DNA from: an uncultured Maricaulis sp.
Lineage (GTDB): Bacteria; Pseudomonadota; Alphaproteobacteria; Caulobacterales; Maricaulaceae
Direction of reading: 5' to 3'
DNA length: 64,000 nucleotides
NCBI RefSeq assembly: GCF_947259345.1
Contig: NZ_CAMYLS010000020.1
Location: forward strand, 1-64,000
Positions 4,554-64,000 of this stretch are shown here, piece by piece; within the stretch, counting starts at the first letter, position 1, and every line of letters begins with the position of its first letter. A model generated the notes under the pieces. It was not told the origin of the DNA. It worked only from the letters and a program-made list of their open reading frames with translations, and searched no databases. A program made the translations under genes and the position numbers.

Positions 4554-5861
4554 TCAGTCGACGCGATCGTGCGCCTTGCCGCCGAGCAGGTTTGCCAGCG
4601 CGGCCTTGTCCGGCGCGATGTCGTGGCAGCGGACCGGGCGCTCCAGCACGGCGCGCAAGGTTGCCGGCAAATCGACGGGCTGACCGATGACGGCCTCGAC
4701 AATATCGGCGAACTTGCCCGGATGGGCCGTCGCGCCGACGATCCAACGGCGCGACTGGCGCGGGTCGGGGTCGAGCCGCTCGAACGCTTCCAGTGCTGTC
4801 GCGGTATGCGGACAGGCGATATAGCCGGTTTCGTCGAAAACCGTCTTCATGCGCGTCTTGATGTGTTTATCGTCAACCGAGACCACGCTTTCGATCTGGC
4901 TGTCTTCCAGGGCCGCCAGACGTTCGAAATTGCTCGGCGCGCCGACATCCATGGCATTGGCGAGCGTGGCGATGGAGGGGCGCCCTTCATAGCGTCCTGA
5001 CCGGAACCAGTCGGCCAGCGTGGTATTGGCATTGGTCGCCAACACGATCGGGCCGATCGGCAGGCCGCAGGTGCGGGCCAGCACGGCCGCGAAGGCATTG
5101 CCCAGATTGCCCGTCGGGATGATGAGGCCGGGGGGCTCGCCGGTTTCGGCATACACATCGAGGGCGGCACGGGCCCAATAGGTCATTTGCGGCAGGAAGC
5201 GGCCGATACTGATCGAATTGGCCGAGGTCAGGTTATGAGCGCGGCTGAGTTCCGGGTCGGCGAAGGCGGTTTTGACCAGCGCCTGGCAGGCATCGAAATC
5301 ACCTTCGATGCGGGCCGCTTCGACCGGGGCTTGCCAGCAGCATAGCTGGTGCTCCTGAAAGGCGGAGATCCGCCCGGCGGGAAACAGGATAACCGCGCGT
5401 GTTCCGGCGACACCTTCTGCCGCGCAGCCGACCGCGCCGCCGGTATCGCCCGAGGTCGCGACCAGCACAGTGGCTGGGCGGTCCGAGGTCTGACCCAGCG
5501 CCCCGAAAGCGCGAAAGAGGAAGCGGGCGCCGAAATCCTTGAAGGCGCCGGTCGGGCCGTGGAAGAGTTCGAGAATGTCGGGCGCGTCTTCGCGGGCGTC
5601 CGGGCGGACGCGCGGGCAGGGAAAGTTGAACGCGTCGGCGCAGATATCCGCCATGGCGGTTTGGACGGGCGTGTCGGCAAAGAAGGGGGCGAGGAGTTTG
5701 GCGGCCAGACCGGGCAGATCCGGCGTCTCGCTGAAATCCGCGACGCTGAAGCGCGGCAATTGCTCCGGCATGTAGAGCCCGCCATCCGGCGCGACACCGG
5801 CGCGCAGCGCGGCGTCCGCGAGAACCGTCGGCGCTTCGCTGCGTGTCGAGCGATATCTCAT
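4554..5861 (-). CDS. thrC: threonine synthase
   Basis: 435 aa, near the usual length. It converts O-phosphohomoserine to threonine with PLP. The N-terminus reads YRSTR with DGGLYMPE, typical of the family. The PLP-binding Lys is about residue 108 in HGPTGAFKDFGA, and the phosphate-cup region is VATSGDTGGAVG. It overlaps thrB by 4 nt and closes the thrA–thrB–thrC operon. Expression should follow the thr attenuator upstream of thrA. Confidence 0.95.
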   Translation of the reverse strand: MRYRSTRSEAPTVLADAALRAGVAPDGGLYMPEQLPRFSVADFSETPDLPGLAAKLLAPFFADTPVQTAMADICADAFNFPCPRVRPDAREDAPDILELFHGPTGAFKDFGARFLFRAFGALGQTSDRPATVLVATSGDTGGAVGCAAEGVAGTRAVILFPAGRISAFQEHQLCCWQAPVEAARIEGDFDACQALVKTAFADPELSRAHNLTSANSISIGRFLPQMTYWARAALDVYAETGEPPGLIIPTGNLGNAFAAVLARTCGLPIGPIVLATNANTTLADWFRSGRYEGRPSIATLANAMDVGAPSNFERLAALEDSQIESVVSVDDKHIKTRMKTVFDETGYIACPHTATALEAFERLDPDPRQSRRWIVGATAHPGKFADIVEAVIGQPVDLPATLRAVLERPVRCHDIAPDKAALANLLGGKAHDRVD

Positions 5862-6802
5862 TCCACCGACTCCACACGCAGCCCGGCGGAATCGATGGGC
5901 GCGTCATAGGCGTTGGCGTCGCACTTGGCGGCGCGGAAAGCCTCAGCCATGGCGCGCTCGACGGCGGGCAGGTCGCTTGCCAGCGCCCAGGCGAAGACCG
6001 AGGGGCCGGAACCCGAGAAGGAGCAGCCCAGTGCGCCGGCGGCGAGGGCAGCAGCCTGGACCGGCTCGAGCTCGGGCAGGAGCGGGCGCCGCTGCGGCTC
6101 GATGAAGACGTCGCGCAGGCCGGCGCGGACCAGGTCGAGATCATTGATCGCGCAGCCGGCGACGAAGCTGGCCATGTTGCGGGCATGCTCGACGGCAATA
6201 TTCTTGTCGATGGTCGGGGCGAGGAGTTCGCGGGCGCGTTGGGTCTCCACCTTGCGGTCGGGATGAAAGAGAATGCAGGCCACGCCGGCCGGCAGGGGCA
6301 GGCGCCGGATCAGTGGCGGGTCAATCCGGCCAGCGACGACAAGTCCGCCCATCAGGGCCGCCATCACATTGTCCCAGGGCGGTGGATCGGCAGAAACTCT
6401 CTCGCCTTCCATGGCCAGGGGCAGAAGCTCGGACAGGCTGAAGGGTGAGCCCAGCAGGGCGTTGACGGCACCCGCAGCAGCGACGGCGGACGCGGCGGAC
6501 CCGCCCATGCCTGCGCTCAGCGGCACGCCCTTGTGAATATCAATGGTCAGGCCGCAGGGCGCCCCTGCCGCCTGAAGCACGGCATCGGCCGCGGCCAGGG
6601 CGCAATTGCCCTCGACCTCGGACGGCAAGCTCTCGACCAGTCCGGAGACATGGCCCAGCTGGATGCCGGGCGCGTCCTCGCGGCGCGCCGTGACCGTATC
6701 GCGCACGGCGTCGAAGGCGAGGCCGAGCACGTCAAACCCGACGCCGACATTGCCGATACTGGCTGGCGCGCTTGCGCGTGCCAGCGATGGGGGTTTGCTC
6801 AT
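5858..6802 (-). CDS. thrB: homoserine kinase (GHMP family)
   Basis: 314 aa. It phosphorylates homoserine. The GHMP ATP-binding loop is at residues ~93–106 (VPLSAGMGGSAASA), preceded by the substrate-side GNVGVGFDVLGLAF motif, and a C-terminal GCSFSGSGPSVFAW motif is present. This is the GHMP-type ThrB of enterobacteria rather than the APH-type enzyme found in many other alphaproteobacteria. It overlaps both neighbours by 4 nt, so the operon is translationally coupled. Confidence 0.95.
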   Translation of the reverse strand: MSKPPSLARASAPASIGNVGVGFDVLGLAFDAVRDTVTARREDAPGIQLGHVSGLVESLPSEVEGNCALAAADAVLQAAGAPCGLTIDIHKGVPLSAGMGGSAASAVAAAGAVNALLGSPFSLSELLPLAMEGERVSADPPPWDNVMAALMGGLVVAGRIDPPLIRRLPLPAGVACILFHPDRKVETQRARELLAPTIDKNIAVEHARNMASFVAGCAINDLDLVRAGLRDVFIEPQRRPLLPELEPVQAAALAAGALGCSFSGSGPSVFAWALASDLPAVERAMAEAFRAAKCDANAYDAPIDSAGLRVESVE

Positions 6803-8601
6803 GCCACGGTCCTCGAGGACATACGGCGAATATGGCTAAGCGGATTCTCCGGCACGCGCGATGCGTCCGACGGCGGCAGGATGGTGTCGCGCTGGATATC
6901 CATGATGTCGGCGAACACCGCCTCCGCCGTCGGCCAGCGGCCGGCGCCCTTGCCGAACACGCTGACCCGGCCTGATGGCAGGTCGAACAGGGCACCATTG
7001 CCTTCATTCACCAGGCCCGCCAACGGATGATCCGGTGCCAGGGCCTGGATCTCGACCCGAGCCTCGACCCGCCCGTCCGCGGTTGTGCTGCATCGGGCCA
7101 CTTGTTTGAAGACGAGCCCCTGCTCGTTGACGGCGGCGATGCGTTCGGCAGACAGGTCGTTGAGGCTTTCGCGACTGATCTGGTCGGGATGAAGGGCGAC
7201 TCCGAAGGCGTGGCGTACCAGGATGGCCAGCTTGTCGGCGGCGTCATAGCCGTCCACATCGGCGCTGGGATCGGCCTCGGCAAAGCCCAGGCGCTGGGCT
7301 TCCGCGACCGCCTCGGCGAGGGGGACACCCCGGCCCAGCTGGCCGAGGACGAAATTGCAGGTCCCGTTCAGCACGCCCTCGACCGAAAGCAGGGTGTCAT
7401 TGGCGGCGAGCAGATCGACCAGTTCGAGGATGGGAACACCGCCGCCAATCGTGGCGGAATAGCGCAGCGAACGGCCATTCTCTTCGGCCAGCTCGTGCAG
7501 GCGTTCGAAATCGAGCGCCATCACGGCCTTGTTGGCGGTGACCAGATGGGCTCCTTCGCGCAGAACGCTTTGTGAGAGGGCGCGTGCCAGTCCCGTCCCG
7601 CCAATCGTTTCGACCACAATATCGGGATCATTGGCCAGCGCTTCGGCCGGGTCGGCGGTGAAGGCGAGGGCGACGGGTGCCCCGGCGCGGTGCTGGTCCG
7701 GATCGCGAACAAGAACGGGGTTGAGCGCGAAGCGGCCGGGATGCGCCAGAAGGTGCGCGCAGACACCGGCGCCGACCGCGCCATGGCCGAGGACTGCGAC
7801 CTTGAGCGGCCGCGCCTCCAGCCCATCGCCGGCGCGTTTGTCGACGGCGGCAATCCGGGTGGCATACGGGCGGCCGAGTGCGGCGACTTCGATGACCACA
7901 TTCTGTTCCTTGGCCCGCGTGATGGCCTTGTCCTGGACCAGACCGCGGCTGACCTTGGCCGCCTCGTCATAATCGAGCTGGTCGAGCCGTTTGGCATTGG
8001 CGACCTTGGCCGGATCATCGGTATAAACCCCATCGACATCCTTGATCAGGCGAACCCGGTCGGCGCCCAGCCAATGCGCGAACTCCACCGCTGTCAGATC
8101 CGTGCCGCCCCGACCCAGGGTAACCGGCCCGTCCGCGCCTTCGCCGAAGAAGCCCGGCGCGACAATCACATCAACCTTTTCGAAGCGCGCCAGGACCCGC
8201 GCCTTGTCCAGACCGGTCAGATTGGCGTCCAGCGCTTCACCCTCGGCCCGCAAGTCCATTTCATGCGGATCGACAACGGCGGACGGAATGCCAGAGCGCT
8301 CGAGCGCCAACCCCATCAGCGCCGCTGATTTCAGCTCGCCGCAGCGGACCAGGCGAGCCAGCAAGGCGTCGGAGCAACCCTGGCCGACATCATTGCCGAC
8401 GCCGAACAGGGCATCGGTCTCGCCATCCAGCGCCGAGACGACGGCGACGACTTTCTCGCCGGCGCGGACATGGCGATAAATCTCGTGGGCGGCGCGGGCA
8501 TAGTCGTCGGGCGTGAACAGGACGGAGCTTCCGAATTTGAGTACGCAAAGCTTGAGCGGTCGTTGGGGGCGTTCTGGCTGGGGTTGGTCTGGCAAGGCCA
8601 T
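6799..8601 (-). CDS. thrA: aspartokinase–homoserine dehydrogenase fusion without visible ACT domains
   Basis: 600 aa, against ~820 for E. coli ThrA. Residues ~17–250 are an amino-acid-kinase domain with KFGSSVL at the start (one residue shorter than the usual KFGGTSV) and the aspartokinase signature TLGRGGTDLT followed by IKDVDGVYTDDP. Residues ~266–600 are homoserine dehydrogenase, with Rossmann motif GHGAVGAG and the ANKAVMA and GKGAGRWPTAEAVFADI motifs. No ACT domains are seen between the two parts or at the C-terminus. The ATG has AAGGA nine bases upstream. The gene is directly behind a Thr/Ile attenuator. It probably catalyses the first and third steps from aspartate to threonine; kinase activity is inferred from motifs only. 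Confidence 0.88.
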   Translation of the reverse strand: MALPDQPQPERPQRPLKLCVLKFGSSVLFTPDDYARAAHEIYRHVRAGEKVVAVVSALDGETDALFGVGNDVGQGCSDALLARLVRCGELKSAALMGLALERSGIPSAVVDPHEMDLRAEGEALDANLTGLDKARVLARFEKVDVIVAPGFFGEGADGPVTLGRGGTDLTAVEFAHWLGADRVRLIKDVDGVYTDDPAKVANAKRLDQLDYDEAAKVSRGLVQDKAITRAKEQNVVIEVAALGRPYATRIAAVDKRAGDGLEARPLKVAVLGHGAVGAGVCAHLLAHPGRFALNPVLVRDPDQHRAGAPVALAFTADPAEALANDPDIVVETIGGTGLARALSQSVLREGAHLVTANKAVMALDFERLHELAEENGRSLRYSATIGGGVPILELVDLLAANDTLLSVEGVLNGTCNFVLGQLGRGVPLAEAVAEAQRLGFAEADPSADVDGYDAADKLAILVRHAFGVALHPDQISRESLNDLSAERIAAVNEQGLVFKQVARCSTTADGRVEARVEIQALAPDHPLAGLVNEGNGALFDLPSGRVSVFGKGAGRWPTAEAVFADIMDIQRDTILPPSDASRVPENPLSHIRRMSSRTVA

Positions 8602-8679: not shown

Positions 8680-8711
8680 AAAAAACCCGCTCGCCGGTCG
8701 GGGAGCGGGTT
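8680..8711 (-). terminator. thr attenuator terminator hairpin
   Basis: On the minus strand a 9-bp stem AACCCGCTC/GAGCGGGTT is followed by six T. It lies between the leader peptide stop and thrA. Its 5' arm with adjoining loop bases (8700–8708) is perfectly complementary over 9 bp to 8753–8761 inside the leader coding sequence (GGGGAGCGG with CCGCTCCCC), which gives a mutually exclusive antiterminator. This is the classic layout of ribosome-mediated attenuation. Confidence 0.9.
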
Positions 8712-8738
8712 CGGTGTGTTGCGGTGTGTCTGGTACCG

Positions 8739-8888
8739 CTACGCCACGTTGGCCGCTCCCCTGATCCAGGAGGTCGTCGTGGTAATCATGGTGGTGGTAC
8801 CGAGGCCGCCGAGGATGACGCAGCCGGTCATGCCCGACCCTGAAAGGGTTGGCTGGCGGCGGCTGATCATGTCCATGGCGTGGGCCAT
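8739..8888 (-). CDS. thrL: thr operon leader peptide
   Basis: A 49-residue peptide beginning MAHAMDMISRR. Its control region is GTTTMITTTTSWI: seven of nine codons at 8772–8798 are Thr, with Ile and Met between. A GAAGGA Shine-Dalgarno lies nine bases before the ATG. Ribosome stalling at Thr (or Ile) codons would leave 8753–8761 free to pair with the terminator arm and let transcription continue into thrA. A weak promoter may lie upstream: TTGACG at 8980–8975 on the minus strand with a poor -10. The peptide is probably not functional beyond its translation. Confidence 0.88.
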   Translation of the reverse strand: MAHAMDMISRRQPTLSGSGMTGCVILGGLGTTTMITTTTSWIRGAANVA

Positions 8889-9146
8889 ATCGACAAGTCC
8901 TTCGGCAGGCGGGTGACAGCACAATTGCTGCACCTGCAAAACTCGATGACAAGAAGTGCGCAAAAATTTCGCGCCGTCAAACCCTTTTTGGCAGAAATTC
9001 TGTAATCGGGTGTTAAAGGTCACACGGGCGGGCATGATTTTGTCCACAGTCCGGCCGCTGGTCGCGGTGATCGTGCTGGGGCAATCTTGGCGGCTGTTGG
9101 CCCCGCCGCGCATCACGCAGGAGCGGGCCGAGGTCGGGAGCCTGTC

Positions 9147-63769: not shown

Positions 63770-63910
63770 ATGCGCCTGGGTTTGAGCAAAATCGTGCAGA
63801 ATGAGCGCGCCGGCCTGCAAGCCGTTCGCGCGGCCATGGCTGCTCGCTTTCCGCTTATTTCGATTATTATCGTCATAGCGCCGTCTGGAGCGATGACAGC
63901 CACGACCTGA
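63770..63910 (+). CDS. branched-chain amino acid operon leader peptide
   Basis: 46 aa beginning MRLGLSKIVQN. Control region FPLISIIIVIAPSGAMTATT: five Ile, one Val and one Leu in eleven codons, then Thr codons. GGAG lies nine bases before the ATG. Directly followed by a strong terminator and then a start codon at 63996. This is the layout of an ilv attenuator; the Ile/Val codons would sense charged tRNA supply. Confidence 0.82.
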   Translation: MRLGLSKIVQNERAGLQAVRAAMAARFPLISIIIVIAPSGAMTATT

Positions 63911-63937
63911 CCCCTTTACTAGGTATCGTGCAGTTTC

Positions 63938-63970
63938 ACCCCGCTTCTGACGTCAGGAGCGGGGTTTTTT
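63938..63970 (+). terminator. attenuator terminator of the ilv-type leader
   Basis: Stem ACCCCGCT/AGCGGGGT (63938–63945, 63958–63965) extended by further pairs inside (CTGAC/GTCAG) and followed by six T. CCTGAC at 63906–63911, at the leader stop, can pair with GTCAGG at 63952–63957 as a possible antiterminator contact. Confidence 0.85.
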
Positions 63971-63995: not shown

Positions 63996-64000
63996 ATGTC
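63996..64000 (+). CDS. start of the attenuator-controlled structural gene, cut by the window edge
   Basis: ATG with CGGAG six bases upstream, 26 nt after the attenuator T-run. From the leader composition it is probably an acetolactate synthase gene (ilvB/ilvI), but no coding sequence is visible to prove this. Confidence 0.5.

Follow-up and report, generated by a model that had tools for sequence, protein, structure and literature searches.

The threonine operon of this uncultured Maricaulis sp. is very probably controlled by a ribosome-mediated transcription attenuator, which precedes genes for a fused aspartate kinase-homoserine dehydrogenase (AK-HSD), homoserine kinase (thrB) and threonine synthase (thrC). 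The genes lie in the window, by which we mean the whole stretch of DNA analysed, 64,000 nucleotides long, which is contig C20 of a genome totalling 3.25 Mb; their order on the minus strand is AK-HSD, thrB, thrC, all downstream of the leader. The parts of the attenuator and their mutually exclusive pairing are seen directly in the sequence and its folding (Table 1), and from these we infer leader translation, ribosome stalling, termination and readthrough. A first-pass annotation of the same DNA had called an intact threonine attenuator with the leader, both structures and the thr genes in the right order, and our analysis bears this out for order and strand alike.

Table 1. Coordinates of the attenuator, its upstream signals and the operon in the window
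Feature	Position	Strand	Remarks
-35-like hexamer TTTGAC	8976..8981	-	in all 18 (of 19) Maricaulis rows that extend there; no -10 assigned
AAGGA, likely ribosome-binding site of the leader	8898..8902	-	AAGGA or GAGGA at equal spacing in L006-L010
Leader peptide ORF, 49 codons	8739..8888	-	ATG at 8888, TAG at 8741-8739; 52 genomes, this one included, have a Thr-rich ORF at the corresponding position
Sensor, nine codons TTTMITTTT	8772..8798	-	seven Thr (ACC/ACG)
Region 2, GGGGAGCGG, 5′ arm of the antiterminator, within the leader ORF	8753..8761	-	11 nt before the stop codon
Region 3, CCGCTCCCC, common to antiterminator and terminator	8700..8708	-	CCCGCTCC invariant in the 40 rows of alignment A1
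Intrinsic terminator (regions 3:4) with six T	8680..8711	-	folding, covariation, conservation
AK-HSD fusion, thrA-like	6799..8601	-	600 aa; no ACT domain found
thrB, homoserine kinase	5858..6802	-	second operon gene
thrC, threonine synthase	4554..5861	-	sole genome match at E 0.001

In the mechanism that we propose, which is like that of the E. coli thr attenuator, a ribosome would translate the leader ORF close behind RNA polymerase. With charged tRNA-Thr in good supply, it would reach the stop codon at 8741 and cover region 2 (8753-8761); region 3 would then pair with region 4, and transcription would stop at about 8680. If charged tRNA-Thr were scarce, the ribosome would stall in the Thr run (8798-8772) and leave region 2 free to pair with region 3, in which case the terminator could not form and the thr genes would be transcribed.

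The coding content of the leader fits such a sensor. The seven Thr in nine codons reported by the first-pass annotation are read directly at 8798-8772, although the portion it quoted is only the middle of the leader, whose full length is 49 codons. Within the 64 kb this is the sole site, on either strand, with at least six Thr in 12 codons (six overlapping windows). Among the 52 leaders that we identified in related genomes, this one included, the Thr-richest 12-codon windows consist of Thr at 341 of 624 residues, the best 12 codons of a leader holding between 4 and 11 Thr and only two leaders falling to 4. Signals further upstream are less uniform: several of 30 leaders inspected have no such ribosome-binding site before the likely start, and a scan for sigma-70 promoters called none.

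It is possible, though doubtful, that this attenuator responds to Thr and Ile jointly, as in the case of the E. coli thr operon. Of the 624 residues in the Thr-richest windows, 78 are Ile, more than for any other residue apart from Thr (Met has 50 and Ser 38), runs such as TITTTIITTT occur in some genera, and E. coli aspartokinase I is described as repressed by Thr plus Ile in the part of PMC10464499 consulted. However, a single transition separates codons for Ile and Met from those for Thr, and the excess of the two residues may therefore be mutational; the Thr run of the window's leader contains one Ile, with a second just after it, and the positions of Ile vary among leaders. The earlier label 'Thr/Ile' depends on that one Ile within the run, so that sensing of Ile is not established.

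Outside the Thr run the leader peptide is poorly conserved. Purifying selection on the whole peptide was not seen in a comparison of six close genomes, in which 19 variable codons had nonsynonymous changes and 6 had synonymous changes only. This poor conservation argues against a further role for the product of the leader, namely an additional function in trans for the terminated RNA or the peptide, comparable to that of rnTrpL/peTrpL in Sinorhizobium; there is an alphaproteobacterial precedent in the parts of PMC7298713 and PMC10117765 consulted, but we regard such a function as very improbable here.

The terminator of the attenuator was described by the first-pass annotation as perfect and followed by six T, and both direct reading and folding agree. 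Its stem, AACCCGCTC/GAGCGGGTT, joins 8711-8703 with 8692-8684 and runs into the six T (8685-8680), and the segment 8680-8712 folds at -19.6 kcal/mol (z -4.6), a value matched by none of 200 shuffles. A simple terminator scan with a loop rule of 3-8 bases did not list the hairpin at 8680-8711, and listed instead a 7-pair hairpin at 8974-8958. A strict hairpin finder called a terminator in 49 of the 52 leaders; those of L007, L008 and L107 were missed by it and recognised by eye and by folding. The mean folding z of the 52 terminators is -4.1. In the alignment of 40 rows, 93.0% of terminator cells are paired and none of 500 shuffles reached the covariation score, although two of the five measures lie within the range of the shuffles (87 and 402 of the 500 shuffles reach them), and 20 of the 40 rows lack pairing at 109-123. 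Two-sided changes number 14 cells, 13 of which fall at one pair of the upper stem.

The competing structure is formed by the leader itself. It had been claimed that a 9-bp leader segment complements the 5′ arm and loop of the terminator, and the match is exact: 8753-8761 is a complete 9-nt complement of 8700-8708. The segment 8700-8762 folds as an antiterminator at -30.6 kcal/mol (z -4.0), again as well as none of 200 shuffles. Support from covariation is confined to the upper stem of the terminator, almost all of it at one pair, and does not extend to the antiterminator, for which alignment A1 is uninformative, giving values not above those of shuffles (195 of 500 reach the percentage paired). 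This result may be due partly to shifts of register between genera, because the partner of region 3 slips by one or two bases from genus to genus, and sliding the antiterminator by -1 pairs more cells (76.4 versus 73.3%). The invariance of the shared arm, CCCGCTCC, may reflect its service in both helices; according to the part of PMC1262725 consulted, shared patterns of this type persist over large distances in the attenuators of proteobacteria.

The switch was examined by folding all 52 leaders with region 2 either free or masked, the latter standing for a ribosome that has reached the stop codon. In the minimum structures obtained with a free region 2, region 3 pairs with region 2 in 38 leaders and with region 4 in 13, and is only partly paired with region 2 in the remaining one. 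Once region 2 is masked, the 3:4 pairing forms in 50 of the 52, the exceptions (L100 and L104) being rows in which the search motif fell inside the arm. In 51 of the 52 leaders the end of region 2 is 7-13 nt upstream of the stop codon. In the window's leader the distance from the final Thr of the run to region 2 is 10 nt; in 25 of the 52 a Thr codon lies no more than 1 nt from region 2, and a ribosome stalled at that codon would therefore cover region 2.

Not every leader conforms equally well. The 2:3 duplex is no better than with a shuffled region 2 in 10 of the 52 leaders, nine of them from one genus. At six loci of genus g7 (L098, L100-L104) two copies of the terminator arm AACCCGC precede the 3′ arm, the second copy being inside the hairpin, so that the two structures may not exclude each other there and the layout of the switch may differ; leaders with the doubled arm could form two alternative terminators.

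A different reading of the same structures is that the leader acts mainly on translation, through the ribosome-binding site of AK-HSD or through re-initiation, and that termination is a side effect. In its favour, the leader stop codon is just 137 nt upstream of the AK-HSD start. On the other hand, the alternative pairing that was found involves the terminator arm, and all 52 leaders have a T-tract after the hairpin (L128 according to one of two inspections only). We consider control mainly at translation very unlikely.

Conservation among relatives also supports the attenuator. The family survey covered 137 genomes, 92 of which have an AK-HSD match at E 1e-70; in 53 of these 92 the protein is at least 44% identical. 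The leader, its Thr codons and a hairpin with T-tract are kept at the same position in 52 of the 53 genomes, which span eight genera. The exception, G020, has a 44% AK-HSD and no recognisable leader, and its contig ends 310 nt downstream. At 49 of the 52 loci thrB and thrC follow on the same strand, the other three (L081, L106 and L107) stopping soon after the AK-HSD gene. Among the 39 genomes with a more distant AK-HSD, 18 were examined: none has a leader with at least five Thr in 12 codons, none has a called terminator, and none has thrB or thrC within the retrieved sequence, which in three cases is truncated by the end of a contig.

For a search by model, 51 of the 52 leaders passed the pattern (L128 failed) and 40 entered alignment A1, which left 12 held out: L128, L008 (a near copy of L007) and ten g7 loci of other spacing (L098-L105, L107 and L108). 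A covariance model trained on the 40 recovered all 12, one of which is nearly identical to a sequence used in training. Its best match lies directly before the AK-HSD gene in 52 of the 137 genomes (E 3.6e-6 or better), 12 of these being outside the training set; 12 more family genomes have weaker matches only, at E 2.0e-5 or worse.

These surveys bear on the alternative that the terminator merely ends an upstream transcript and the Thr-rich frame before it is incidental. In favour of this, a second terminator with a GAGCGGG arm lies at 63957, so that such an arm is no special property of the site, and the complete leader shows no protein-like constraint in its evolution, as noted above. Against this stand the joint recurrence of Thr-rich frame, stop position, region 2 and terminator in 52 genomes, the lack of the combination in all 18 examined genomes with a distant AK-HSD, and the recovery of every held-out leader. 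An incidental frame is accordingly an explanation to which we give almost no credence.

AK-HSD exists in two forms: one is encoded in an operon preceded by the attenuator, and the other, more distant in sequence (L109-L126), has no thrB or thrC next to it. Outside the family, none of 384 other genomes of the class has a match at E 1e-85, while G044 and G052, of the same order and another family, carry distant versions. G123 has a second copy of AK-HSD, partial and 42% identical, and the source genome contains further AK-like stretches (L004 and L005). Upstream of the genome's second homoserine dehydrogenase gene (375 nt) and of lysC (437 nt) there are no Thr-rich ORFs.

The enzyme encoded by the first gene is of interest in relation to this control. 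The ACT domain is a characteristic feature of regulated enzymes, for example AK-I and AK-III, according to the part of PMC10464499 consulted, and a title in the reference list of that paper states that a homoserine dehydrogenase was no longer inhibited by threonine after deletion at its C-terminus. Pfam detected no ACT domain in the AK-HSD of the window, nor in any of the 11 other attenuator-bearing AK-HSDs searched (L024 and ten more), though a diverged domain can escape Pfam; in the same genome an ACT domain was likewise not found in the second homoserine dehydrogenase and is present in LysC. With no such domain found in AK-HSD, we infer that threonine control may rest largely on the leader RNA. 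Going further, we tentatively raise the possibility that in the Maricaulis family threonine control of the homoserine branch has shifted from protein to RNA, the attenuator being the main threonine sensor of the branch, a reading based on the compact AK-HSD without a detected ACT domain and on the similar state of the other homoserine dehydrogenase. With 52 natural versions of the switch next to a compact enzyme in which no feedback domain is recognised, the group would lend itself well to testing whether RNA can replace allosteric feedback.

Other attenuators were found alongside the one described. A second one in the window, at 63851-63969 on the plus strand (32.7 bits with the covariance model), has an Ile-rich leader ORF containing LISIIIVIA (63770-63910, plus strand), a terminator at 63938-63970 and an ATG near 63997. 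A matching leader in relatives L167 and L172 precedes the gene for threonine ammonia-lyase (ilvA), and judging from this similarity the second attenuator probably belongs to an ilvA gene beyond the end of the window. Twenty further model matches within the family were sorted by eye into 15 branched-chain leaders, 3 of ilvA type and 2 that are neither (L182 and L184). The leaders rich in Leu, Val and Ile, which occur elsewhere in this genome and in relatives, have a similar GGAGCG/CGCTCC switch (L177, at G000:C1:136127-136250 minus, and L166, L168-L171, L174-L176, L178-L181, L183 and L185), and the genes downstream of those tested are ilvC, ilvD or acetolactate synthase genes, about 1 kb away in L177 and L178. 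In L178, L179 and L180 (genera g14, g15 and g5) the branched-chain leader lies about 0.5 kb upstream of the thr attenuator on the opposite strand, such that two attenuators diverge from one region.

Beyond the family, the model matched 17 other genomes of the class; of eight sequences read, six have Thr-rich leaders and two do not (L150 and L155). The six, from three other families of alphaproteobacteria, are additional Thr-rich leaders indicated by the scan and precede thrS-type genes (L147, L149, L153, L156 and L160) or asd (L151). Identification as thrS-type is by TIGR00418 for L153 and by similarity to L153 for the others, for L147 from residue 255 on only. Like the Maricaulis attenuator, these leaders are followed by a hairpin, but the genes are different and the model scores are 27-39 bits; a terminator with T-tract was called at two of the five thrS-type loci (L149 and L156). 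The leader of L151 contains Lys codons as well and is followed by a terminator-like hairpin. Threonine attenuation of thrS within the order of Maricaulis was considered and rejected, as a Thr-rich leader with a terminator was found at none of 30 loci (from 60 matched genomes); one thrS locus, L193, has five Thr in 12 codons and no called terminator.

The closest known counterpart is the thrL leader of gammaproteobacteria, represented in Rfam by RF00506 (Thr_leader). The two systems share a Thr-rich leader peptide, a terminator before the thr genes (thrABC in gammaproteobacteria) and an alternative antiterminator, and the Rfam model aligns weakly over its full length at the present site. Membership in RF00506 was nonetheless rejected, because the score is 17.8 bits against a gathering threshold of 55. 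At its cut-off the model matched none of 61 genomes and 1 of 14 control genomes, and at gathering it matched none of ten relatives' loci; at a loose threshold there were matches in 60 of the 61 genomes, none above the cut-off, but 9 of the 14 controls matched as well, which makes loose matches uninformative. There are also structural differences. The thrL leader has 21 codons, and an attenuator of the E. coli four-region type has a 1:2 protector or pause hairpin, whereas the Maricaulis leader has 49 codons and no clear protector hairpin: in folding against shuffles of five leaders, L085 gave z -2.05 and the other four gave -0.26 to 0.52. In further contrast to the thrL system, no ACT domain was found in the Maricaulis AK-HSD.

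Threonine attenuation had been characterised in the first-pass annotation as best known from gammaproteobacteria, and amino-acid attenuator motifs, threonine included, may have originated there with very few transfers (PMC3766115, in the part consulted). Threonine leaders in alphaproteobacteria are not wholly unprecedented, however. The part of PMC10117765 consulted reports a small ORF of Sinorhizobium, SEP5, which has six Thr codons, lies in the 5′-UTR of an aspartate dehydrogenase gene and gave detectable translation, and suggests that it is a leader peptide, so that a threonine leader is not unheard of in this class. SEP5 resembles the Maricaulis leader in being an alphaproteobacterial small ORF with Thr codons upstream of an aspartate-pathway gene, and differs in having both Thr and Lys codons, in the gene that follows, and in that no terminator switch is described in that part of the paper; the asd leader of L151 also resembles what was suggested for SEP5. 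The literature searched contained no title on thr-operon attenuation in Maricaulis or its family (the main survey, Vitreschak 2004, is outside that literature and may mention one), and most likely we are dealing with a well-known kind of switch whose thr-gene version in alphaproteobacteria is undescribed in the literature searched.

Finally, we note the parallel with the ilv attenuators of alphaproteobacteria, which share class and layout with the Maricaulis attenuator, and in the ilv and ilvA leaders a similar GGAGCG/CGCTCC switch, but have a run of Leu, Val and Ile codons and serve ilvC, ilvD, acetolactate synthase and ilvA operons. We suggest that the Maricaulis leaders add the thr operon of one alphaproteobacterial family to the range of a textbook switch, in versions that Rfam misses.
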